Origin: a virus
Virus record (IMG/VR): IMGVR_UViG_3300046000_000939
Location: 1-22,188 of that record
Reading direction: 5' to 3' (one strand)
DNA: 22,188 nt
The position numbers and the translations under genes were made by a program. A model generated the notes under the pieces. It made no database searches. It was not told the origin of the DNA and saw only the letters and a program-made list of their open reading frames with translations. Positions within the stretch are counted from its first letter, which is position 1; each line of letters starts with the position of its first letter. Of the stretch, positions 2,245 to 18,671 are shown piece after piece.

Positions 2245-2511
2245 ATGGCAACAAAAGCAGAAAAAGTATTAAAGACAGAAAAAATGGCAAGCACAGGAAG
2301 TAATCCATTGCGTGCTGCAGTAAAATATGTTGACAATGGTCTTAGTGGTCTAAATTTAAAGCCACGAGAAGAATTAGCATTAAGAAATAAATTAATTCCT
2401 ATTGTTTCTAATCGTATTAAAAATGAACGTGGTCGTACAGCATCTCGCGCTGCTGGAGTTGTTAGCCGCGAAACAAAGGCTCGCATTAAAAAAGCATTAA
2501 ACAAATTCTAA
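2245..2511 (+). CDS. Small basic protein between terL and portal, function unknown
   Basis: This 88-aa protein is rich in Lys, Arg and Ala and probably mostly helical, with a very basic C-terminus (ETKARIKKALNKF). It starts 8 nt after the terL stop, with an AGGAA ribosome site about 6 nt upstream. I recognise no domain. Its place between terminase and portal suggests a packaging or head role. A small terminase subunit is a possibility, but its size and lack of a recognisable helix-turn-helix argue against that. Base composition drops to about 30-40% G+C here, well below the start of terL. Confidence 0.75.
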   Translation: MATKAEKVLKTEKMASTGSNPLRAAVKYVDNGLSGLNLKPREELALRNKLIPIVSNRIKNERGRTASRAAGVVSRETKARIKKALNKF

Positions 2512-4551: not shown

Positions 4552-4958
4552 TGGCTAGAGGCGGTTATAGAAGACCTAATAATCCAGCGCCAGTGTCAGG
4601 TCCTGGCGCTTTATCACAGCGTACCGATGGTGGTGCAACTGAAGGCTTTACTCAAGGACAGGCTACATACACAGGTCTTCCTTACGGACAAAACAAGATG
4701 ATTAACCAACAGCAAAGCGAAGCACCAATGGCTGCTGCAGCAATGCCACCAATTCTTTCATTAGATGAACCCAGCATGCGTCCAGATGAACCAGTAACTT
4801 CTGGTATTAATATGGGTGCTGGTGCTGGTACTGAAGCAATGCGTGGTATGCCTAACTATGCACCAACACTTATTGATACAATTAAACAACTTACACAATT
4901 TGACCCATCAGGCGATGCAGAATTAATTTATAGACAACTACTTGATAACGGGTACTAA
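4551..4958 (+). CDS. Disordered portal-adjacent protein, function unknown
   Basis: This 135-aa protein has low-complexity, Gly/Pro/Gln/Met-rich sequence. The N-terminus contains RRPNNPAPVSGPGALSQRTD, which I recall as a recurring signature of small proteins next to portals in actinobacteriophages. The middle is Ala/Met-rich and the last 30 residues (TLIDTIKQLTQF onward) look helical. It overlaps the upstream gene by TAATG and has a GAGGAGG ribosome site within that gene's end. It also overlaps the giant gene downstream in the same way. The function is unknown; a flexible virion component is plausible. Confidence 0.78.
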   Translation: MARGGYRRPNNPAPVSGPGALSQRTDGGATEGFTQGQATYTGLPYGQNKMINQQQSEAPMAAAAMPPILSLDEPSMRPDEPVTSGINMGAGAGTEAMRGMPNYAPTLIDTIKQLTQFDPSGDAELIYRQLLDNGY

Positions 4959-7900
4959 TGCAATACATTAATCCTGTTGTTGCTTCTGTTTCTCCTAACT
5001 TATACTCTGCTGCTAAGCAGGCTAATTTAAACTCTACTCAGACTACTCAAATTGAACAGATGAGTTACACGATTAAAAAACATCGTGACCTATCTAAATT
5101 AGATAATAAGATTGCTCGTTCACAATTTGATAGACTAGACCCTAATGCTCAAGAGCAATTAAAGTTTATGTTTAAAAATGCGGACTATCTTAAAGAAGAA
5201 CCTACTGGTTCTGACCGCGTTAAAGGATTGTTTACTGGAGCACTTAAAATAGCAGCAAGCCCACTTATTGGTTTATTTAAGGTTGCTGGTCAGTACAATA
5301 AAATTATTAATCAACCGTATAAGGTTGCTCGTTTGGCTGCGCAGGGACAAGATTTATTTTCCGTAAAAACATGGTACCAAGCATGGGACGGCAACAACGT
5401 TTATGATGATGGTGCTCTTAAAGAAGCAACTGATTACTTTGGTCAGTACGATGTTCAGGTAGCAAAAGGTTTACTAGCAGGACGTACTCCTGGTGAGATT
5501 GTTCAGGATTATGGCAAGGTTGATAACAACATTCTTGAATCAATCAAAAAAGCCTATAACGACCCTGATGCTTTTAAGCAGGTATTAGATGGCGTTAAGT
5601 ACGCACAGGTTTCACCTGGTCGCGACCTTGCCCGTATGTTAGATACAAAGCCACCACGTGATGGTGGTCTGCACGGAGCATACGTTAGTGGTACAACTAA
5701 AAACGTTTCTGGTGTAATTGACTTTGTTTACCAGTTAGCAATTGACCCACTTACTTGGTTAACAGGTGGTGGAAATAAAATTCTTACTAAGGGTGAGAAA
5801 ATTGCTAACCAAATTCTTAAAGATGTTGATAGTGGCGTAGGCGCAGAGCGTGCTGTTGAAAAAGCATTCCAAGACCCTAAATTATTTAACCTATGGGAAA
5901 ACCAATTAGGTCCACTTGTTAAACGATACAAAGAAGGCAACCCTGAAGAGAAGGCTGTTGCTTATCGCACAATCATGGAAAACCATCCAGGTTGGGCTAA
6001 CCCACAATTTATTAAAGCGTTGGCTGATAATGATACTCCAGTAGTAAATGCAGCAACTGCTAAGAAGTATTTTGAAGATACTACCAACTTGCAACGTTTA
6101 CTTTCTGGTCGTGTAGATGGTACAACATACCAACGCAATGGCGTTGCTATTGCTCGTACTAATCGTCTTTACATGGATGGCATGCTCCGTAACCTTGATG
6201 GCATTTTTAATTTCCGCCGTGGTGCAGAAGAATTAACACCTAAAGTAAAAGAAATACATAAAGCACTTATTTCTCCAGTAGATGCAATTGAACGCATTAA
6301 AGCAGGAGATGCTGGTATGGCTGCAGTCTTAGCATCTAATAAAGAGATTACACGCTGGAAGCGTATTGGACAACTTGCTTCACGTTCCGCTCAAGGACTA
6401 GAAGTACGCACTGGTCCAGATGCTGTACTTACTGCTGCTAACTTTACTGCACGTGCTCGTCAATTATTGCCACGCGATATGGCTGAAGCACTAACACAAA
6501 GATTTATTGCATCACCTGCTGATGAGCAATTTGTTATTTTGCGTAATCTGGATGCTTCCACAATGTACTCAATGGGTCTTGGTGGAGACGCACGTGGTGA
6601 AGAACTAATCCAAACTATCCTTCGTGATAAATATGGAGACAAAGCAGGCTTTGCAACTAAAGTAGATGTAGGTGTAAACCCAGAACACGCTAAAGTTGCA
6701 CCACCTAATGCTATAAAGGTTAATGAAGTAGGCACTGTAATGAATACAGAAGGTCCAATTCAACCTTATCAGGCTACTAAGGCTGTTGGTTCCCTGCCTT
6801 ATGATGAAATTGGTTCCATGATATGGAACATTAAATCTAAAAAGAATCTTATTAACGCTATTGGCGGAGCAACACAGGGTTCATTTTCTAAAAAAATAGT
6901 AGATAGTTGGTCAATTCTTACACTGTTCCCACGTTTGGGTATCCGTTCTGCAATTGATGAAGCAACTATGTATGTTTTATCTGCACCAACTAAAGATTTA
7001 TTAAGACTTGCTTCTTTTCAAGGCTTTAGAATGAGCAATCGTTCTAAAACATTTACTGGTTCTGGAGAAGCAACTGGTCCACTTAAAAAAATAATACAAA
7101 AAGTATTTAAAGTAGGACCACAAGTAAACTTGTTTGATATTGTAGGCAAAAAACTTAACATTAATCCAGAAGAAGCACTATCAATTGACGCACGAATTAC
7201 TGCTATGCAAAAATTTGCAGACGCTAAGGGCGTAGATGTAGCACTTCTTGATAGTATGGAAAAACGTGAAGCCGTATCTCAGGCTGTTGCTAAATTGTAT
7301 GCTCGTTATCTTGATGAAGACACAATGGATTATTTATTGCAAGCATTTGTTCACTCACCTGATGCTTTAAACTCCATGGCTCAGTCAATGGTTGCACACA
7401 GCGCATTATCTGGTAAATATGGCAAGGATATTATTAAAGCAACTATTACTCCCAGCATGCTGGATAATGCATTTAAAGAAATAGGCGTTAAAATGACGCG
7501 TGGTACGCGTATGTTAAATACTACAAGCCTATCGCAACGTCAAGTTGCTCTTGCACAGTACGAAAAATGGTTTAAAGCCTTTGTTGGAAACAAGGCTAGT
7601 ATAGGAGATAAGGTTTATCTTAATCCTGCTAAAATCTTTTTCAGTAATGATGGATTGCGCACTGGCGATAACATGACTACTGCCCTTGATGAGGGCATGA
7701 TTTCTGTTGGATTTAAAAAAGGTCCAATAACTGGTAATTGGTTTGTTGATGACGAAGTACTTGTTAGAGATTTTCTATCTATGTCATCACACAGCGTAGA
7801 AATGCGTACACGTGGTTTAAGTGACGATGAAATTGTTCGCACTCAGTTGTTCCGCATGTTTAATGATATGTACGAAACCTTTCATGGTAACGTTAATACA

Positions 7901-10063
7901 TTCAACGATAAGTTAATGGCATTAATACGTAAGAGTAAAGATGAGATGGATGCCTTTGCGCTTGCAGCAAAGAATCCTCGTGAGTCTACATGGAGTCAGG
8001 CTTCTGCACGTATCAGCCTAGACGATTTTGAAGATGCTACTGATGGCTACCGTATTACTGGACAGATTAATACTGGCATTGACTTTGAAAACTTTAATGC
8101 TGAGACAGTGTTTAGACGTTATGGTGCTATGGCAATGGAAGAAATGGATAAACAGGTTACTGGTATATTCCGTCAACCAGCCATCATGGTTACATATGCA
8201 CAACTGCGTAAAAAGTATTCAGGTTTAGAGCGTGAGTTTGCTGAGAACCAGTACAAAATTAATGGTGGTTTGTGGGAATCTGGTGGCAAAGCAAAGAATA
8301 AAGTAGAGTGGGAAAACGCACTAGATTTAGCGCAAAAACGTTTTACTGAAATCTCTACACGTGAAGCAGCAGATGTAATTCTTAAGTATGCAGATAACCC
8401 TGCTATTCGTTCTAACTTTGCTTTTAGTGCACGTACTGTTGGAAGATACTACCGCGCTACAGAAGACTTCTATCGCCGTATCTACCGCTTAAAAGATGTA
8501 AGCCCTAGAGTTTTATATCGTATGCGCCTTGCTAGTCTTGGTATAGAAGCCAGTGGTATGTTCCACAAAGACCAGAATGGTGAACCATATGTAGTAATGC
8601 CTATGGATAACATTATCTTTAAGGCTACAGATGGCACGATTCGTGCCTTGACTGGTAATACTGGTTATAGCCAACCATCGTTTAACGAGTTTACATTTAA
8701 ACTACGCATGATGAACCCATCATTCTCACAAGATGCTGGTTTGCCTACACTATCTGGTCCTGTTGCAGGACTTAGCGTAGTAGCAGTAAAGAATATATTA
8801 GGTTCCTTACCAGGACAGTTACCGTTTATTGGTGATATGATAGATGAACCCGCTAAGCAATTAGCAGAAAGTATAGATACATTTGCGCTAGGTAATATCG
8901 GTGATAACATGGATATTACACGGGCTATTGTGCCAGTAGGTCTACAAAGAGCGTATTCAATTTTTAATAAAGATGAAAAGAACCGTCAAGAAGTAACTGC
9001 AGCACAACAGGCAATTGCTTACAATGCAGCACGTGGTAAGTTCTTGGATGCTAACTCAACAGCAGAAGAAAAGGCTGAGTATCTACGTAACATACGTATA
9101 TCTGCACACAATGTACTAGTTATTCGCCACGTATTAGGTCTGTTTGGACCAGTTGCACCTACTGTTATTGAAAGCCAAGGTGTACCTGATTACATTAAAG
9201 AAACAGGCATTAGCGGATTGCGTTCTGAGTTCTTTGATATTCTTAATGGTATTAGTGCAACAAGCAATGGTGATATTGCAGAACCATATGAAGAAGCATT
9301 GGCTACATTTATTGGTGATAACCCAGGTAAACTTATCTATACAATATCACGTGATGATAAGCAAACAAAGGTTCTTATTAGAAACACAGATAAATTAAAA
9401 AACTGGGGTATTGCTAACCAAGATATGATTAAGAAGTATGGTGAAGCAGCATACATATTTGCACCACAAATCGGTGATTTTAATGCTGCTACATACAACT
9501 GGATACAAGCAGCAGGTCTTGTTAAAAGCAAAAGTCTTGAGAAGTATTACAATGATTTGCTAGTAGCCGAAGATAAACAAACTTATTATAACATTGCACG
9601 TAGTGAGAAGAATCAACTACGTGATACATCCGACCCTGTTGCACGTGCTAATATCATTAGTCGTGCTACAGATGCTCGTGATTCTATTAAAGCATCTAAT
9701 CCTTTATTAATACCAGCCCTTATTGGTGAAGGTAATAACATAGGTAGCGAGCAAGTAATGCTAGAAAACATAGAACAGATTATTGATAGTCCTAATACTA
9801 ATGTTCCCGATGCTACTCGTATCCGCATGAATTTGGCTATCAGAATGATTCGTGACTTCATGGCATTCTGTACTAATCCAGAACTAGCAAATGCAGTTAA
9901 CGCAGCAGACATTAAAGCCGAACGCAAACAACAAGTTGAGGCAGATTTAAGAGAGTTAATGTTAGGTGACCTATACGTAATAGAGGCTAACCGAGCCATC
10001 TTTAAGTCTATCCTTAACTTCTACTCACGTGATTCTTACTATGCATACAAGGAGAAGAAGTAA
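4958..10063 (+). CDS. Giant candidate virion protein (1701 aa), function unknown
   Basis: This single uninterrupted reading frame fills about 23% of the window. It starts in a TAATG overlap with the previous gene and has only a weak GGG upstream, so it probably depends on coupled translation. The sequence is mostly alpha-helical. It has several hydrophobic or amphipathic stretches, including residues 90-111 (LFTGALKIAASPLIGLF), about 250-275 (FVYQLAIDPLTWLTGGG) and about 1266-1294 (VAGLSVVAVKNILGSLPG). I see no clear lysozyme, transglycosylase, protease, MuF or ADP-ribosyltransferase motif. Position between portal and scaffold, and its size, fit an internal or ejection protein delivered with the DNA, or a large minor head protein. 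A classical tape measure is less likely because it lies before the capsid genes and is not flanked by tail genes. The reading frame is certain; the function is inferred. Confidence 0.88.
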   Translation: MQYINPVVASVSPNLYSAAKQANLNSTQTTQIEQMSYTIKKHRDLSKLDNKIARSQFDRLDPNAQEQLKFMFKNADYLKEEPTGSDRVKGLFTGALKIAASPLIGLFKVAGQYNKIINQPYKVARLAAQGQDLFSVKTWYQAWDGNNVYDDGALKEATDYFGQYDVQVAKGLLAGRTPGEIVQDYGKVDNNILESIKKAYNDPDAFKQVLDGVKYAQVSPGRDLARMLDTKPPRDGGLHGAYVSGTTKNVSGVIDFVYQLAIDPLTWLTGGGNKILTKGEKIANQILKDVDSGVGAERAVEKAFQDPKLFNLWENQLGPLVKRYKEGNPEEKAVAYRTIMENHPGWANPQFIKALADNDTPVVNAATAKKYFEDTTNLQRLLSGRVDGTTYQRNGVAIARTNRLYMDGMLRNLDGIFNFRRGAEELTPKVKEIHKALISPVDAIERIKAGDAGMAAVLASNKEITRWKRIGQLASRSAQGLEVRTGPDAVLTAANFTARARQLLPRDMAEALTQRFIASPADEQFVILRNLDASTMYSMGLGGDARGEELIQTILRDKYGDKAGFATKVDVGVNPEHAKVAPPNAIKVNEVGTVMNTEGPIQPYQATKAVGSLPYDEIGSMIWNIKSKKNLINAIGGATQGSFSKKIVDSWSILTLFPRLGIRSAIDEATMYVLSAPTKDLLRLASFQGFRMSNRSKTFTGSGEATGPLKKIIQKVFKVGPQVNLFDIVGKKLNINPEEALSIDARITAMQKFADAKGVDVALLDSMEKREAVSQAVAKLYARYLDEDTMDYLLQAFVHSPDALNSMAQSMVAHSALSGKYGKDIIKATITPSMLDNAFKEIGVKMTRGTRMLNTTSLSQRQVALAQYEKWFKAFVGNKASIGDKVYLNPAKIFFSNDGLRTGDNMTTALDEGMISVGFKKGPITGNWFVDDEVLVRDFLSMSSHSVEMRTRGLSDDEIVRTQLFRMFNDMYETFHGNVNTFNDKLMALIRKSKDEMDAFALAAKNPRESTWSQASARISLDDFEDATDGYRITGQINTGIDFENFNAETVFRRYGAMAMEEMDKQVTGIFRQPAIMVTYAQLRKKYSGLEREFAENQYKINGGLWESGGKAKNKVEWENALDLAQKRFTEISTREAADVILKYADNPAIRSNFAFSARTVGRYYRATEDFYRRIYRLKDVSPRVLYRMRLASLGIEASGMFHKDQNGEPYVVMPMDNIIFKATDGTIRALTGNTGYSQPSFNEFTFKLRMMNPSFSQDAGLPTLSGPVAGLSVVAVKNILGSLPGQLPFIGDMIDEPAKQLAESIDTFALGNIGDNMDITRAIVPVGLQRAYSIFNKDEKNRQEVTAAQQAIAYNAARGKFLDANSTAEEKAEYLRNIRISAHNVLVIRHVLGLFGPVAPTVIESQGVPDYIKETGISGLRSEFFDILNGISATSNGDIAEPYEEALATFIGDNPGKLIYTISRDDKQTKVLIRNTDKLKNWGIANQDMIKKYGEAAYIFAPQIGDFNAATYNWIQAAGLVKSKSLEKYYNDLLVAEDKQTYYNIARSEKNQLRDTSDPVARANIISRATDARDSIKASNPLLIPALIGEGNNIGSEQVMLENIEQIIDSPNTNVPDATRIRMNLAIRMIRDFMAFCTNPELANAVNAADIKAERKQQVEADLRELMLGDLYVIEANRAIFKSILNFYSRDSYYAYKEKK

Positions 10064-13484: not shown

Positions 13485-14429
13485 ATGGCTAATGCATATA
13501 CATCTTCTACTGGCAATCTCGCTGGTACCGCTGGTGGTGCAGGTCTCGTCCAAAAGGCGTATGACCGTCTACTAGACTTCGCGTTGCGTTCAGAACCCCT
13601 AATTCGTAGCGTGGCAGATAAGAAGCCCGTCAAATTAGCAAACCCTGGCTCAACCGTAGTTCTACAACTATACGCAGATTTGTCTGAACAGACAACTGCT
13701 TTAACAGAATCAACTGAGCGTGACTCAGTACAGATTGCTGCTCCAACATCAGTTACTATTACTCTTGCTGAGTATGGTAACTCTGTTCTTACAACACGTG
13801 CGTTGGAACTCTTCAGCCTTGCTGATGTAGACCCAGCAATCGCTAACATCATTGCCTTCAACCTTGCAGGCTCAATTGATACAGTTGCACAGACTGAACT
13901 TCGTGGTGGTACTAACGTCATCTATGGTGGCACACGTACTAACACAGTAACAATTGCTGCTACAGATACAATCACTTCTGCTAACATCCGTAAGGCTGTT
14001 GCTAAGTTGCGTTCAGGTCTGTCAGTTCCTCGTAAGGGTTCAATGTACTGGTGTGGTATCCACCCAGAAGTTTCACACGACCTTCGTGCTGAGACTGGTG
14101 CTGGTGGATGGCGTTTGCCTCACGAGTACAACTCAAATGAAAACATTTGGGCTGGAGAAATTGGTTCATATGAAGGAGCCTACTTCGTAGAGTCTGCTCG
14201 TATGTTCAATGATACTGATGGTGCTTCAAGCGCCAAGGTATACCGCACAATTCTTGCTGGTAAAGAAGCAATGGCTGAGGCTGTTGCTGAAGAACCACAT
14301 ACAGTTATCGGTCCAGTTATTGACCACTTGATGCGTTTCCGCCCAATGGGTTGGTACGGCGTTCTTGGCTTCAAGCGTTATCGCGAAGCAGCCTTGTATC
14401 GTATTCTTACAGGTTCATCAATCGCTTAA
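13485..14429 (+). CDS. Major capsid protein, N4-gp56 type
   Basis: This 314-aa protein is predicted to be the main shell subunit with the HK97 fold. The sequence matches the N4-gp56 capsid family as I know it. It has the PGSTVVLQLYADL strand region followed by TTALTEST (about residues 55-76), VTITLAEYGNSVLTT (about 90-104) and RGGTNVIYGG (about 140-149). It also has NIRKAVAKL (about 167-175), GEIGSYEGAYFVES (194-207), and a C-terminal FRPMGWYGVLGFKRYREAAL (about 275-294). The ribosome site is very strong. Codons tend to end in C and local G+C is visibly higher than in neighbours, as expected of the most expressed virion gene. The scaffold gene upstream and hairpin downstream support the call. 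Confidence 0.93.
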   Translation: MANAYTSSTGNLAGTAGGAGLVQKAYDRLLDFALRSEPLIRSVADKKPVKLANPGSTVVLQLYADLSEQTTALTESTERDSVQIAAPTSVTITLAEYGNSVLTTRALELFSLADVDPAIANIIAFNLAGSIDTVAQTELRGGTNVIYGGTRTNTVTIAATDTITSANIRKAVAKLRSGLSVPRKGSMYWCGIHPEVSHDLRAETGAGGWRLPHEYNSNENIWAGEIGSYEGAYFVESARMFNDTDGASSAKVYRTILAGKEAMAEAVAEEPHTVIGPVIDHLMRFRPMGWYGVLGFKRYREAALYRILTGSSIA

Positions 14430-14495: not shown

Positions 14496-14768
14496 ATGGC
14501 AACATATACACTTGTAACACCAACTCTGGAACAAGGTCACATTGGTGCTCATCGTTTGTTTACACACTTTAGACAACGTACTAAGAGTTACACAATCATC
14601 CTTAGTAATGGTATTTATTCGCTTATACAGTTTCCAACTGAAGATGAGTTAGCAACTTACACTGCTTACTATATGGGTGGATGTCAACATACTGGAATTA
14701 GTGATGCTATTAGAACAGCAATGATTGCCGATGGGATTGTAACTTCGGCTAACTTTACAGTGGAATAG
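14496..14768 (+). CDS. Small conserved protein after the capsid gene, function unknown
   Basis: This 90-aa protein begins MATYTLVTPTLEQG and contains HRLFTHFRQRTKSYTIIL, then a beta segment and DELATYTAYYMGG. I recall similar short proteins placed right after the capsid gene in actinobacteriophages, with no known function. The ATG at 14496 follows AAGGAG by 5 nt. An in-frame TTG at 14469 would start within the upstream hairpin and is unlikely. It may be a decoration or head-completion protein, but nothing in the sequence proves that. Confidence 0.75.
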   Translation: MATYTLVTPTLEQGHIGAHRLFTHFRQRTKSYTIILSNGIYSLIQFPTEDELATYTAYYMGGCQHTGISDAIRTAMIADGIVTSANFTVE

Positions 14769-14774
14769 GGACAA

Positions 14775-15221
14775 ATGCACGAACATATTAGCAAGGTACT
14801 TGAATGGGGATTTAGCGCAGACCATAACTTTGAAGTAGTCCAATGGGGATGCACACTTTGTGAGGTAACTTCAGATAAGCCATTTCAATATGAAGATACT
14901 TTTGTAGACCATACTCAATGCGATTCATCTTGCTTTGGTTGTAAAGCCAAAAACCTACAGTTAAATGCAGGTGATGCTAGAGGTGATGTTAACGCAAGTG
15001 GTACTACTCAAAAGAAATGGAACTCTGAACTTGAAGCATATAGAAGTGCCAGAGCACAGGGTATTCAACCTGGTGGTACAAAGAGAAAACAAATAGAAGC
15101 AGCGCACGATGCATCTGAGAAATTAGGTACAGCGTATGATGGCAACACAATGATGCAAGCAGAAAAGTTAGACAAATCAACAGCCAACGTAATCAAAGAA
15201 CTTAAGGAAGCAGGAATATAA
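14775..15221 (+). CDS. Cys/His-rich putative zinc-binding protein
   Basis: This 148-aa protein starts 6 nt after the previous gene, with AGGGA upstream. The N-terminal third has C26-x2-C29, H46-x2-C49 and C53-x2-C56, a spacing that fits one or two zinc-binding clusters. The C-terminal part is helical and polar (KKWNSELEAYRSARAQGIQP and a DASEKLGTAYDG segment). From memory it resembles actinobacteriophage proteins found just after the capsid gene. A nucleic-acid or protein interaction role is likely for such a finger, but the target is unknown. It is separated by only one base from the lysine-rich cluster that follows, so it probably belongs to the same translation unit. Confidence 0.78.
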   Translation: MHEHISKVLEWGFSADHNFEVVQWGCTLCEVTSDKPFQYEDTFVDHTQCDSSCFGCKAKNLQLNAGDARGDVNASGTTQKKWNSELEAYRSARAQGIQPGGTKRKQIEAAHDASEKLGTAYDGNTMMQAEKLDKSTANVIKELKEAGI

Positions 15222-15222
15222 A

Positions 15223-15378
15223 ATGCCTAAAGTTGGAAAAATGACATTCCCTTACACAGCAAAAGGTAAAGCAGCAGCAAAGAAGGCTGCATACAAGACT
15301 GGTGAGAAAATGGAATCTAAGTCCATGAAGAAGATGGAAATGAAAAAGGGTATGAAGAAGATGGGTAAGAAGAAGTAA
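15223..15378 (+). CDS. 51-aa Lys/Met-rich basic protein
   Basis: This very short gene begins MPKVGKMTFPYTAKGKAAAK and ends KKGMKKMGKKK. It has 18 Lys and 8 Met in 51 residues and, apart from two Glu, no acidic residues. An AGGAA ribosome site lies about 7 nt upstream. The stop overlaps the next ATG as TAATG, which supports that it is really translated. The KVGK.TFPYT.KGKAAAKKAA opening recurs in small proteins of aquatic phages as I recall. Such a protein would bind DNA or RNA by charge; packaging with the genome is an inference. Confidence 0.8.
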   Translation: MPKVGKMTFPYTAKGKAAAKKAAYKTGEKMESKSMKKMEMKKGMKKMGKKK

Positions 15379-15668
15379 TGGCTGCTAAACCGCTTCGTCC
15401 TTCTGCAATGATTAAGCAGCGTGTAAAGAGTACTCCAGTTGCTATGCCTAAGAAGAGTACAGCAATGGGTAAGCCAGCACCTTTAGTTATAAAGATAACT
15501 CCACCTGGAAGAAAAGTTGCTAAGCCAAAAGGAAAGCCAAAAGGTCTTAATGATTTTCTTAAAGAGAACAAGCGTCCTCCAAGCAAAAACAAAAAGTTAC
15601 CTTCAGAAGCAGATGCAATTATTAAAGGTTACAACGATAAGAAAACTTTAACTAGAAAGAAAAAATAA
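15378..15668 (+). CDS. Lys/Pro-rich basic protein (96 aa)
   Basis: This protein overlaps both neighbours by TAATG. It is rich in Lys and Pro with low-complexity stretches such as KVAKPKGKPKG and a C-terminal KKTLTRKKK. Only a short middle segment (LNDFLKEN) looks able to fold. No domain is recognised. Its ribosome site is weak, so it is probably translated by coupling to the 51-aa gene. It is grouped with the other basic proteins as a candidate nucleic-acid-binding virion or host-takeover protein. Confidence 0.77.
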   Translation: MAAKPLRPSAMIKQRVKSTPVAMPKKSTAMGKPAPLVIKITPPGRKVAKPKGKPKGLNDFLKENKRPPSKNKKLPSEADAIIKGYNDKKTLTRKKK

Positions 15669-15925
15669 TGGCTGACCCAAGACTAAAACGAATAGGTGTA
15701 TCTGGCTTTAATAAGCCTAAACGAACACCAGACCATCCTAAAAAGTCACACGTAGTTGTGGCTAAAGAAGGTACCAAAGTTAAGGTAATTCGTTTTGGAC
15801 AACAGGGTGTTACTGGAGATAGACAACCAAGTGCAAGACAGGCTTCATTCAAAGCCCGTCATGCTAAGAACATTGCTAAGGGCAAAATGTCTGCAGCATA
15901 TTGGGCAAATAAGGTGAAGTGGTAA
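15668..15925 (+). CDS. Conserved small basic phage protein (KSHVVVAKEG type)
   Basis: This 85-aa protein has MADPRLKRIGVSGFNKPKRT, PKKSHVVVAKEG, VKVIRFGQQGVTG, FKARHAKNIAKGKMSAAYW and a terminal ANKVKW. I recall this chain of motifs as a widespread family in cyanophages, pelagiphages and other aquatic phages, with no assigned function. It seems to form a small beta core (HVVVAKEGTKVKVIRFG) followed by a basic helix. It overlaps both neighbours by TAATG. Its wide conservation suggests a specific job rather than simple charge neutralisation. Confidence 0.85.
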   Translation: MADPRLKRIGVSGFNKPKRTPDHPKKSHVVVAKEGTKVKVIRFGQQGVTGDRQPSARQASFKARHAKNIAKGKMSAAYWANKVKW

Positions 15926-16107
15926 TGGCTACTAAAAAGAAATCTACAGTTAATGCTGCTGGTAATTACACTAAGCCAACTATGCGTGCATCTTTGTTTA
16001 AAAAGATTAAGGCTGGCTCTAAGGGCGGAGACCCTGGTGAATGGTCTGCACGTAAGGCTCAACTGCTTGCTGCTCAATACAAAAAGGCAGGCGGAGGTTA
16101 CAAGTAA
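15925..16107 (+). CDS. Conserved small basic phage protein (GNYTKP type)
   Basis: This 60-aa protein has STVNAAGNYTKPTMRASLF, then KIKAGSKGGDPGEWSARKAQ and LLAAQYKKAGGGYK. From memory these motifs recur in a family found in many aquatic phages, often beside the previous gene's family. Its function is unknown to me. The start is at the TAATG overlap (15925). An upstream in-frame ATG two codons earlier lies inside the preceding gene and is less likely. The conserved Trp and the AGGGYK end suggest a defined fold despite the small size. Confidence 0.83.
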   Translation: MATKKKSTVNAAGNYTKPTMRASLFKKIKAGSKGGDPGEWSARKAQLLAAQYKKAGGGYK

Positions 16108-16343
16108 TGGCACTTGCTAAATCTCAAAAGTCTTTAAAAGACTGGACTGCACAAAAGTGGAAAACTTCTGATGGCAAGCCATCTAAAGGTAAAAAGCGGT
16201 ATCTGCCAGAAGCAGCGTGGGCATCACTGACACCTGCAGAGAAAGCAGCAACCAATAAGGCTAAAGCAAAAGGTAATGCAAAGGGTAAACAGTTTGTTAA
16301 ACAACCTAAAGCAATTGCAAAGAAGACCGCAAGAAATAGATAA
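16107..16343 (+). CDS. Conserved small basic phage protein (SLKDWTAQKW type)
   Basis: This 78-aa protein has SLKDWTAQKWKTSDGKPSKG, RYLPEAAWASLTPAEKAATN and GKQFVKQPKAIAKKTARNR. The pattern is a family I recall in aquatic phages and some giant viruses, of unknown function. It overlaps the previous gene by TAATG with GGAGG just upstream, and ends 15 nt before the glycosyltransferase-like gene. Conserved Trp residues and the GKPS loop suggest a folded core, with a basic tail for nucleic acid contact. Confidence 0.83.
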   Translation: MALAKSQKSLKDWTAQKWKTSDGKPSKGKKRYLPEAAWASLTPAEKAATNKAKAKGNAKGKQFVKQPKAIAKKTARNR

Positions 16344-16358
16344 CAAAGGTGGGGACAC

Positions 16359-17057
16359 ATGGTTAAGCAAAAGAAAGAAACACTAGCAGTCGCTTGGTGT
16401 GATAACGGTATGGTAGATGGCAAGTTTATGGAAGGTGTCGTAGACACCATTATAAACTCTGGCGTAGAGTTCTGTGGTTCATTAAGGGCACATGGTAATC
16501 AGATAGCACAGCAACGAGAGATGTTAGTTAATCGTTGGTATGATAATAATAAATCTGATTGGCTGCTCTGGCTTGACTCAGACATTATGATTACTCCAGA
16601 AAAGTTCCTTAAACTTTGGAACCGCAGAGATGCAAAAGATATACCATTGCTTACTGGTGTTTACTTTACAAGTAATGAACCAGAGCAACCTTTAATGAAA
16701 CCCTTAGCAACTGTTTATGAGTTTGCTGAAGTACCAGATGGTATTGGAATTAGAAGGTTAGACCCACTACCAAAGAATACTTTTATGAAAGTAAGTGCTG
16801 CTGGTATGGGCTTCTGCCTAATGCATCGCAGTGTAATAACAAGGATTAAAGAAGCACTGCCAGGAGTTCCGTTCTTTACAGAGGTAGGTGCTAACAAGCA
16901 GTTTACTGGTGAAGACATTTACTTCTTTGCAGTAGTAAACAAAGCAGAAATTCCACTTTGGTGTGATACCGCTGCAACAGTAGGACACATGAAAAGATTT
17001 AATATGGATGAAAACTACTACGATGCTTTTGGTAGAGGTAAAGGTTATGCAAACTAA
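16359..17057 (+). CDS. Glycosyltransferase-like protein, GT-A fold
   Basis: This 232-aa protein has the features of a nucleotide-sugar-dependent transferase. It shows an N-terminal strand (LAVAWCDNG), an arginine-rich helix (QIAQQREMLVNRWY), and WLLWLDSDIMITP with a DxD metal site at residues 73-75. It also has VSAAGMGFCLMHRSV (145-159), TGEDIYFF (183-190) with the acidic pair often used as catalytic base, and a late His at 210. The likely reaction is transfer of a sugar to a protein, glycan or nucleotide acceptor in the cytoplasm. The acceptor cannot be read from the sequence. An AAAGGTGGGGA ribosome site precedes the ATG. Its end overlaps the methyltransferase gene by 11 nt, so the two probably work together. 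Confidence 0.82.
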   Translation: MVKQKKETLAVAWCDNGMVDGKFMEGVVDTIINSGVEFCGSLRAHGNQIAQQREMLVNRWYDNNKSDWLLWLDSDIMITPEKFLKLWNRRDAKDIPLLTGVYFTSNEPEQPLMKPLATVYEFAEVPDGIGIRRLDPLPKNTFMKVSAAGMGFCLMHRSVITRIKEALPGVPFFTEVGANKQFTGEDIYFFAVVNKAEIPLWCDTAATVGHMKRFNMDENYYDAFGRGKGYAN

Positions 17058-17625
17058 ATATCCTAATTGGTTTGAGATGACCGCAAAAGAAAACTTTGAG
17101 TCACAACTGTTACCACTTGCTGGCAAGTTTGGTTTACGATTCCTACAGATTGGTGCCTTTACAGGCGATGCATCTGTCTGGTTAATAGATAACGTATTAA
17201 CCACAAAGAACTCTGTGCTAGAAGATGTAGACATCTGGACTGGTTCAGATGAAGAAGAACATCAGGCTATGGACTGGTTAGATGTTGAACGTGTTTATGA
17301 TTCACGGATTGCTTTTCGTCCTAACATAATTAAATACAAGATGGATAGCAAAGAGTTCTTACGTTCTATTGATGAGCCAACCTTTGACTTTATCTATATA
17401 GATGGAGACCACACCGCAGAAGGTGTGTTACAAGATGCAGTGCTTGCTTGGAGATTACTTAAGCCAGGTGGCATTATTGCATTTGATGATTATTTGTGGG
17501 AAGACCCTAGAGGTGTTGAGTTCCAGCCAGGCTGGTCAATAGATACTTTTGTAGGAGCAGTTAAAGAAGAATCAGAAGTTTTACTATCAAACTCTCAAGT
17601 ATGGCTAAGGAAAAATAAGGAGTAA
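17047..17625 (+). CDS. SAM-dependent class I methyltransferase
   Basis: This 192-aa protein has a Rossmann methyltransferase layout: motif I FLQIGAFTGDAS (residues 32-43), DFIYIDGDHTAEGVLQD (114-130), and LLKPGGIIAFDDYLW (137-151). The YIDGDH segment is typical of the Methyltransferase_24 group, often linked to sugars or small molecules. I chose the ATG at 17047, which has GAGG and AAGG just upstream; an in-frame ATG at 17008 would extend 13 residues into the preceding gene. It overlaps the glycosyltransferase-like gene by 11 nt. DNA methylation is unlikely, since no DPPY/NPPY-type motif is present. Methylation of a transferred sugar is a reasonable inference. Confidence 0.87.
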   Translation: MQTKYPNWFEMTAKENFESQLLPLAGKFGLRFLQIGAFTGDASVWLIDNVLTTKNSVLEDVDIWTGSDEEEHQAMDWLDVERVYDSRIAFRPNIIKYKMDSKEFLRSIDEPTFDFIYIDGDHTAEGVLQDAVLAWRLLKPGGIIAFDDYLWEDPRGVEFQPGWSIDTFVGAVKEESEVLLSNSQVWLRKNKE

Positions 17626-17627
17626 CA

Positions 17628-18671
17628 ATGGCTGCTAAAAGACCAACAGGTGCTTATCCAAAATCTAGCAAAAAATCTATTGCTAAAGCAAGATTTAAGG
17701 ATTCCCAAAAAAATGGTAGAGTTTTATCTGGTGAAGTAATTACACCTGGTTCTACTATTCGTCTTGGCGCTAAAGTATTAACTGCAGCACAAAAGGCTAT
17801 TGTCGGACGTGCCGTCCGTGAGAATGTATTAGAAAAAACCGCACAACGTGCAGGTGCTAAAGCCAAACCTATGCTCCGTAAAGTATCCGATAAAGATGCT
17901 AGAGCAGTATCACGTGAAATGTCTAAGCGTCCTAATAATGTGGGTCGTGCACGTGCGGTAACTAAACCAGATAACACTGTTGGTGTTGGTCGTTCAGAAG
18001 CACGCCGTATGCGTGAGTTACAACCAATAACAAAAAAGCAGGGTACTCCAGTAAAGCCTAAAGATGTTCTTGAAGCACGTGCTAAGGCACGCGCTGCAAC
18101 TGTTAAGAAACAATTAACACCTATTAGACCTAGAGGCGTTCCTGCTGGTGGTAAAAGTATTGCTGGTCCTAAAACAAATCCACGCACAATAACTGTTGCT
18201 AAACCATCTGCTGCTACTACACGTGCTAAAAGAGTTAACCCTGGTGACCGTAAATTAGATGAAAGCCGTAGACAGGGAATGAAAGATGCTATTAGAGATA
18301 ACCGTAATACATTCCAACCTTTAAATAAATCTCCATATCAAAGAGAATTAGAACAAGTAAGAGAAGGTAAGTCAAGTAATATCTCTACAAAACCTACAGA
18401 CCGTCAAATGGCAGAAGCAGACCGCCGCGTTAACGAAGCACTTAAGAGCAACCGTAAACCAGATATGCCTAACTCTAAAAAAATTGGTGAGGCTGCACGC
18501 AAGCGTCCTAATCTAGATGTTCGTAAAAAACAATCACTTAATGCACAAGCCAAGCGCATTTCTGCGCTTGATAAAGCAAAAGGTTTATCTAGAAAACAAC
18601 GTTTAGAAAAACGAGCAAAGGCTAAAACAATTGCTACACGAATCCGTAGAGAAGCAACAGGAGGTAAGTAA
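17628..18671 (+). CDS. Large, very basic low-complexity protein (347 aa)
   Basis: The protein is dominated by Lys, Arg, Ala, Pro and Ser over its whole length, with few aromatic residues. Examples are SKKSIAKARFK near the start and a C-terminal RKQRLEKRAKAKTIATRIRR. It is probably disordered in its first two thirds with short basic helices later. No family is recognised. AAGGAG lies 6 nt before the ATG and its stop overlaps the next ATG as TAATG. A DNA- or RNA-binding role, perhaps inside the virion, is suggested by charge alone. A ribosomal or histone-like homology is not visible. Confidence 0.82.
   Translation: MAAKRPTGAYPKSSKKSIAKARFKDSQKNGRVLSGEVITPGSTIRLGAKVLTAAQKAIVGRAVRENVLEKTAQRAGAKAKPMLRKVSDKDARAVSREMSKRPNNVGRARAVTKPDNTVGVGRSEARRMRELQPITKKQGTPVKPKDVLEARAKARAATVKKQLTPIRPRGVPAGGKSIAGPKTNPRTITVAKPSAATTRAKRVNPGDRKLDESRRQGMKDAIRDNRNTFQPLNKSPYQRELEQVREGKSSNISTKPTDRQMAEADRRVNEALKSNRKPDMPNSKKIGEAARKRPNLDVRKKQSLNAQAKRISALDKAKGLSRKQRLEKRAKAKTIATRIRREATGGK

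Follow-up and report, generated by a model that had tools for sequence, protein, structure and literature searches.

A variable slot of small basic proteins behind the capsid module of a probable freshwater actinobacteriophage: candidates for DNA-binding accessory proteins of the phage head

What is the role of five short, lysine-rich genes that a virus encodes one directly after another behind its capsid gene? The window, by which we mean the whole stretch of 22,188 bases from an IMG/VR virus record that was analyzed here, encodes TerL, portal, capsid, and later structural genes, and the five genes (p51, p96, p85, p60, and p78, named after the length of their products) follow in this region (Table 1). 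A first-pass annotation had described them, with 51, 96, 85, 60, and 78 codons, as strongly basic and coupled through TAATG overlaps. These coordinates proved exact: neighboring genes each share a single base, all lie on the plus strand, and their products have pI values of 10.4-11.4 and lysine contents of 16-35%. The same annotation had placed the cluster among the structural genes, which agrees with its orientation along the capsid gene. The strand, the gene order, and a capsid-to-slot stretch in which promoter and terminator signals are not in excess over shuffles are the features that suggest late expression.

Table 1. Features of the window, with positions counted from its first base
Feature	Position	Strand	Description
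88-aa protein	2245-2511		net +14, pI 11.1; between terminase and portal genes; small basic protein in head region
1701-codon gene	4958-10063		almost a quarter of the window; no PHROGs or Pfam match
Major capsid protein	13485-14429	+	Phage_capsid_3, phrog_1357; anchor for choosing relatives
Two non-basic genes	14496-14768 and 14775-15221		between capsid gene and basic cluster
p51	15223-15378	+	51 aa, net +15, 35% Lys; low-complexity lysine tail with GKKK end; weak phrog_33179
p96	15378-15668	+	96 aa, net +23; rare family
p85	15668-15925	+	85 aa, net +17; free-standing Tlr6F/DUF5754-type domain (phrog_7595)
p60	15925-16107	+	60 aa, net +12; N-terminal half of a DUF5872-like protein (phrog_17747)
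p78	16107-16343	+	78 aa, net +18; C-terminal half of the same DUF5872-like protein as p60 (phrog_14910)
Glycosyltransferase	16359-17057	+	phrog_34859; divides or bounds the basic slot
Methyltransferase	17047-17625	+	Methyltransf_24; alternative in-frame start ATG possible upstream at 17008
p347	17628-18671	+	347 aa, net +62, pI 11.6; further basic slot protein

The basic cluster and its slot

Ranked by charge per residue, the cluster proteins occupy the top five places among the 24 called genes, and contiguity of the five most basic genes is not expected by chance (P = 0.0005). Comparison with relatives yields median dN/dS values of 0.19 for p51, 0.08 for p85, and 0.06 for both p60 and p78 (83-122 comparisons each), indicating that these four genes are under purifying selection. 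The value for p96, 0.34, derives from only three comparisons, two of them with one same contig. This protein has no database match and homologues in only a few loci, and a search for relatives of p347 found none. For p51, tblastn against phages returned no match, probably due to its low complexity, and the NCBIfam search gave no significant match.

A survey of related loci can offer a broader view of the region in which the cluster resides. We compared 45 loci, namely the window and 44 relatives picked by capsid similarity that hold both a 148-aa and an 84-aa gene, some of them from the same or nearly identical contigs. The interval between these two genes, hereafter the slot, contains small basic genes in every locus, 3-9 by family count. 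The position behind the capsid module, to which the first-pass annotation had drawn attention, recurs in every capsid-selected relative with enough sequence, whereas beyond the window's phage group p85 and p60/p78 can also be encoded at a distance from capsid genes.

The slot ORFs are nearly uniform in charge. With those labelled as glycosyltransferase or methyltransferase set aside, 234 of 247 display a pI above 9.5; the 13 non-basic ORFs consist of one cluster of 12 short ORFs (35-52 aa), whose copy in the window is nested in the methyltransferase gene in another reading frame, and one glycosyltransferase missed by the labelling. Among distinct ORFs of 35-130 aa in the same loci, a pI above 9.5 is found for 175 of 186 inside the slot and for 30 of 160 outside (Fisher P 3e-51, which serves as a guide only, the ORFs being non-independent).

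The families that make up the slot vary strongly. We count 42 families over the 45 loci, including p51 (present in 33 of 45), p60/p78, p85, DUF6321, DUF6496, and many unnamed ones, and none occurs in more than 73% of the loci; this high turnover indicates that no single slot family is essential. The mean content overlap amounts to 0.67 at capsid identities of at least 98%, drops to 0.26 at 95-98%, and ranges from 0.12 to 0.21 below. Even between capsids that are 95-98% identical, families are replaced while the basic charge stays. p85 and p60-p78 also change their order among relatives, with p60-p78 sometimes found beyond the glycosyltransferase, which is itself nearly constant; the methyltransferase is present in 14 of 49. 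In the window, the slot extends past both of these genes to p347. As a side observation on one of the families, DUF6321 also forms the C-terminal domain of cyanomyovirus T4-GC119 proteins, whose genes neighbor neck and terminase genes (L398 5873-7237; L402 4762-6249), and one T4-GC119-type protein with this domain is annotated as structural in S-B43.

Kinship of p60, p78, and p85

Three of the proteins had been taken for three widely conserved aquatic families. All three, p85, p60, and p78, indeed fall into PHROGs (7595, 17747, and 14910) of unknown function, but p60 and p78 are, as their relatives indicate, two halves of one protein; that they are independent families is ruled out by fused relatives and constant linkage. 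In a scan of bacterial and archaeal genomes, both domains appear in a single ORF on many contigs, from Corallococcus, Myxococcus, Hymenobacter, Sphingomonas, Roseomonas, Rubrobacter, and others, and in Pelagibacteraceae the fusion adopts the opposite order (p78-p60). The contigs carrying this reversed-order protein in Pelagibacteraceae (L363, L366, L361, and others) reach up to several hundred kb. By locus, we count 168 viral split, 6 viral fused, 38 bacterial fused, and 13 swapped arrangements, along with 24 split ones on genome-collection contigs, some of which are probably viral. On a FastTree tree, parsimony requires only three changes between split, fused, and swapped states.

The linkage between the halves is strict. 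p78 accompanies p60 in all 78 loci untruncated by a contig end and in all 38 with 3-kb flanks, with one dominant spacing (a domain gap of 15 in 120 loci), and one contig, that of L086/L230, carries p51-p96-p85 followed by a single fused gene. p60 aligns with the N-terminal half of the Corallococcus fused protein (58% over 59 aa) and p78 with its C-terminal half (43% over 63 aa), with residues kept from phage to bacterial chromosomes. The splitting by phages and the reversal in one bacterial lineage indicate that the halves very probably work together. Constancy of this kind does not extend to the three presumed families as a set, for which constant co-occurrence behind the capsid gene had been proposed as a check: p60 is found in only 6 of 28 p85 loci with 3-kb flanks, whereas the p60-p78 pair is constant.

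Taken singly, neither p60 nor p78 matches DUF5872 (PF19197) up to E = 1, whereas the best fused bacterial relative reaches 29.2 bits (cut-off 27.5) and others fall slightly below the cut-off. In several fused proteins, Rho_N repeats (1.9e-17, 1.3e-05) follow at the C-terminus, and SAP is weakly matched. Both of these folds bind nucleic acids, and a nucleic-acid function can therefore reasonably be supposed for DUF5872-like proteins. Neighbors of the DUF5872 gene in bacterial chromosomes are mostly ordinary metabolic or regulatory genes (ten genes checked). A link to Ku/LigD repair was also considered and was not borne out, since the ten chosen neighbors include no Ku/LigD gene and one UvrD helicase. 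Next to a Myxococcus DUF5872 gene, we noted a gene with an eCIS_core domain (L335 3597-4730, 1.1e-07), a domain associated with contractile injection systems. The fused viral p60/p78 protein is predicted to adopt a compact helical fold (pLDDT 84.5), with no relative in the PDB by sequence or fold, and a search of plasmids with p60 gave no match.

The kinship of p85 points in a different direction. p85 belongs to phrog_7595 (1.1e-35), and tblastn and alignment recover its domain in Vibrio phage ICP1 (gp125), Vibrio phage P018-4, and Aphanizomenon phage CL131. In ICP1 gp125, an XkdF protease domain (PF14550, 7.5e-10; phrog_3017, head maturation protease, 7.9e-13) is followed by the p85 domain (phrog_7595 at residues 184-261, 7.2e-12). 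The order is opposite in P018-4, with the p85 domain N-terminal to the XkdF protease, and in CL131 the domain occupies positions 534-604 of a 1393-residue portal and Mu F protein (phrog_7595, 2.6e-7). ICP1 gp125 is a predicted procapsid protease encoded in the late capsid operon gp122-126 (PMC7567579), in which gp122, gp123, and gp124 are the coat, decoration, and scaffold proteins (PMC10945586). In purified CL131 virions, LC-MS/MS detected the portal, ORF012, at the level of the protein as a whole (PMC6293099). The strongest indication of a function in the head is that the domain is joined to two different head proteins. The Prochlorococcus phage MED4-184 encodes a free-standing p85 homologue with the head morphogenesis gene on one side and the major head gene on the other, and in SIO1, P12053L, S-EIV1, and HMO-2011 the homologue sits elsewhere, so that the position alone is not universal.

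p85 itself scores below the Pfam cut-off for DUF5754/Tlr6F (PF19058; E 0.064, 13.7 bits versus 27.4). Its homologue in phage NCTB, found by tblastn (8e-5), matches PF19058 above the cut-off (2.5e-11). The p85 model, predicted as a compact folded domain (pLDDT 90.6), matches a Tunisvirus protein in Foldseek with a probability of 1.00 and an E of 1.2e-3; other structure-search matches are ICP1 ORF125 and XkdF and ChaB proteins. Sequence and predicted structure together indicate a relationship of p85 to the DUF5754/Tlr6F proteins found in giant and polinton-like viruses. Against solved structures, neither sequence nor fold revealed a counterpart of p85 at the sensitivity used, and no known DNA-binding fold was matched. 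DUF5754, the same family as Tlr6F, is conserved in polinton-like viruses, virophages, giant viruses, and phages, and its function is unknown (PMC4642659, PMC12220804); one algal giant virus is listed with both DUF5754 and DUF5872 (PMC12085832). In the literature searched, DUF6496 appears in no paper, and DUF5872 and DUF5754 appear only in gene lists or in passing.

The predicted folds also bear on the comparison with DNA-condensing viral core proteins made in the first-pass annotation. Strong basicity fits such a comparison, but the folded models of p85 and the fused p60/p78 protein speak against protamine-like extended chains, and the notion that all five proteins are protamine-like disordered chains is rejected for these members.

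A possible role in the phage head

By capsid protein, the nearest cultured kin of the window phage are the Planktophila phages LanE43AprE7 and AprF5 (OX376640 and OX376641, 71%), followed more distantly by Streptomyces phages (52%). LanE43AprE7 and AprF5 were the first phages to be cultured on Ca. Nanopelagicales (PMC10202952). This kinship points to a freshwater actinobacterium as the likely host, and the carriers of the cassette would be freshwater actinobacteriophages.

The conserved charge, the changing families, the position next to the capsid module that is kept within this phage group, and the use of one family as a domain of head proteins elsewhere are most simply explained together by late, head-associated DNA-binding accessory proteins. 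We hypothesize that the cluster shows one version of a hypervariable late cassette encoding such proteins, which would probably be packaged, and we give this reading about as much credence as doubt. The slot proteins would be made together with the capsid protein, would enter the procapsid or bind the DNA under packaging through their positive charge, and would then be carried along with the DNA in the head, where they would help to neutralize or protect it. p60 and p78 may act as a unit, as separately translated but coupled halves, and p85 would be a free-standing copy of the domain that other phages attach to their prohead protease or portal. DNA binding, incorporation into the virion, and an effect on the DNA are what we infer from this combination of features.

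The possible extent of such an effect can be estimated from charge. One copy each of p51, p96, p85, p60, and p78 provides +85 charges against ~78,000 phosphates in a genome of ~39 kb, a size taken from cultured relatives, which implies that neutralizing even half of the DNA would take some hundreds of copies of each protein. It is hence more plausible that they act locally or in part than that they condense the DNA fully. In the literature searched, we found no report of a stand-alone member of a slot family in a virion. Further points speak against the head-associated reading, namely the positions of p85 and p60/p78 apart from capsid genes in other phages, the dispensability of any single family that the turnover implies, and the absence of a known DNA-binding fold among the matches of p85. 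The relatives of p60/p78 that are ordinary bacterial chromosomal genes count against packaging, as their function needs no virion.

This last observation leads to a possible though doubtful alternative, in which the slot proteins are purely intracellular late binders of nucleic acid, nucleoid-like and acting in replication, transcription, or DNA protection, that lie behind the capsid gene only because this spot of the late operon tolerates insertions. The chromosomal DUF5872 proteins of free-living bacteria, some with Rho_N/SAP domains, would fit such a role, as would the varied positions of the families in other phages, beside lysis, terminase, or nuclease genes. It is harder to reconcile with a p85 domain that forms part of a prohead protease and of a portal, and an insertion-tolerant spot would not be expected to contain small genes that are nearly all basic.

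Rather unlikely, in our estimate, is that the proteins are packaged and injected with the DNA to act against host defenses or in host takeover, in the style of T-even internal proteins, with an arms race driving the turnover. Small size, basicity, proximity to head genes, and very fast change of content are all in line with such a function, and gene flux in the cultured Planktophila phages has been described as high (PMC10202952). However, unlike fast-evolving effectors, these families are shared by distant phages and bacterial chromosomes and evolve under strong purifying selection, and no common leader was recognized among the slot families when sequences were read by eye and C-termini and composition were tallied.

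That the genes are weakly constrained or spurious lysine-rich ORFs of an A-rich region, as the low-complexity lysine tails of p51 and several slot families (GKKK ends 33 slot-protein C-termini) and the few or missing relatives of p96 and p347 might suggest, is hardly credible, being already contradicted for p51, p85, p60, and p78 by their low dN/dS, by the residue conservation from phage to bacterial chromosome, and by precisely coupled starts.

Returning to the head-associated cassette, a bolder form of it, which we regard as speculative and rather unlikely, would be a rapidly exchanged set of packaged nucleoid proteins that freshwater actinophages keep next to the capsid gene, on its far side. 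Its members would be drawn from a pool common to bacterial chromosomes and giant viruses, selection would hold the total basic charge of the head while families come and go, and the Tlr6F/p85 domain would be a module of the head interior from tailed phages to giant viruses.

The cluster had been put forward as an undescribed system; its families are in fact already known from Pfam and PHROGs, and it is their functions that are not. New to our knowledge, and in the literature searched, are the split and swap relation of DUF5872, the fusions of Tlr6F-type domains to prohead protease and portal, and a slot that conserves charge while it exchanges families. These offer a functional lead for two orphan families, since the presence of a Tlr6F-type domain within prohead protease and portal points to head assembly and the halves of DUF5872 very probably cooperate. 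If the slot proteins are packaged, some tailed phages would carry a chromatin-like set of proteins, and the cultured pair of Ca. Planktophila LanE-43 and its phages F5 and E7 makes the question testable.

Comparison with known systems

The loci of internal proteins in T-even phages comprise small, basic, variable genes near head genes, and in all these respects they resemble the window cluster, whose proteins are known from genes alone; we know of no sequence relation between the two sets. The bacterial and viral DUF5872 proteins (PF19197) are related to the window more directly, as the halves of the fused proteins align to p60 and p78. The window differs from them in having two coupled genes, which lack the Rho_N/SAP extension and follow a phage capsid module.

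By structure search, p85 has its fold in common with the Tlr6F/DUF5754 proteins of polinton-like viruses, giant viruses, and phages, although its own score lies below the PF19058 cut-off. The ICP1 gp125 prohead protease and CL131 ORF012 contain the same domain within a larger head protein, whereas p85 of the window is a stand-alone protein.

Cultured counterparts are the slots of LanE43AprF5 and LanE43AprE7 (phages of PMC10202952). Unlike the window, they lack p60/p78 and have no glycosyltransferase at that place, and they hold proteins of 53 aa and 118 aa, a DUF6496-like protein of 61 aa (so labelled by resemblance to the scanned slot family), and p85. Their layout matches that of the window, with the capsid gene followed by two genes, the basic genes, an 84/90-aa gene, and a 305/315-aa gene, and their p85 is 88% identical to that of the window.
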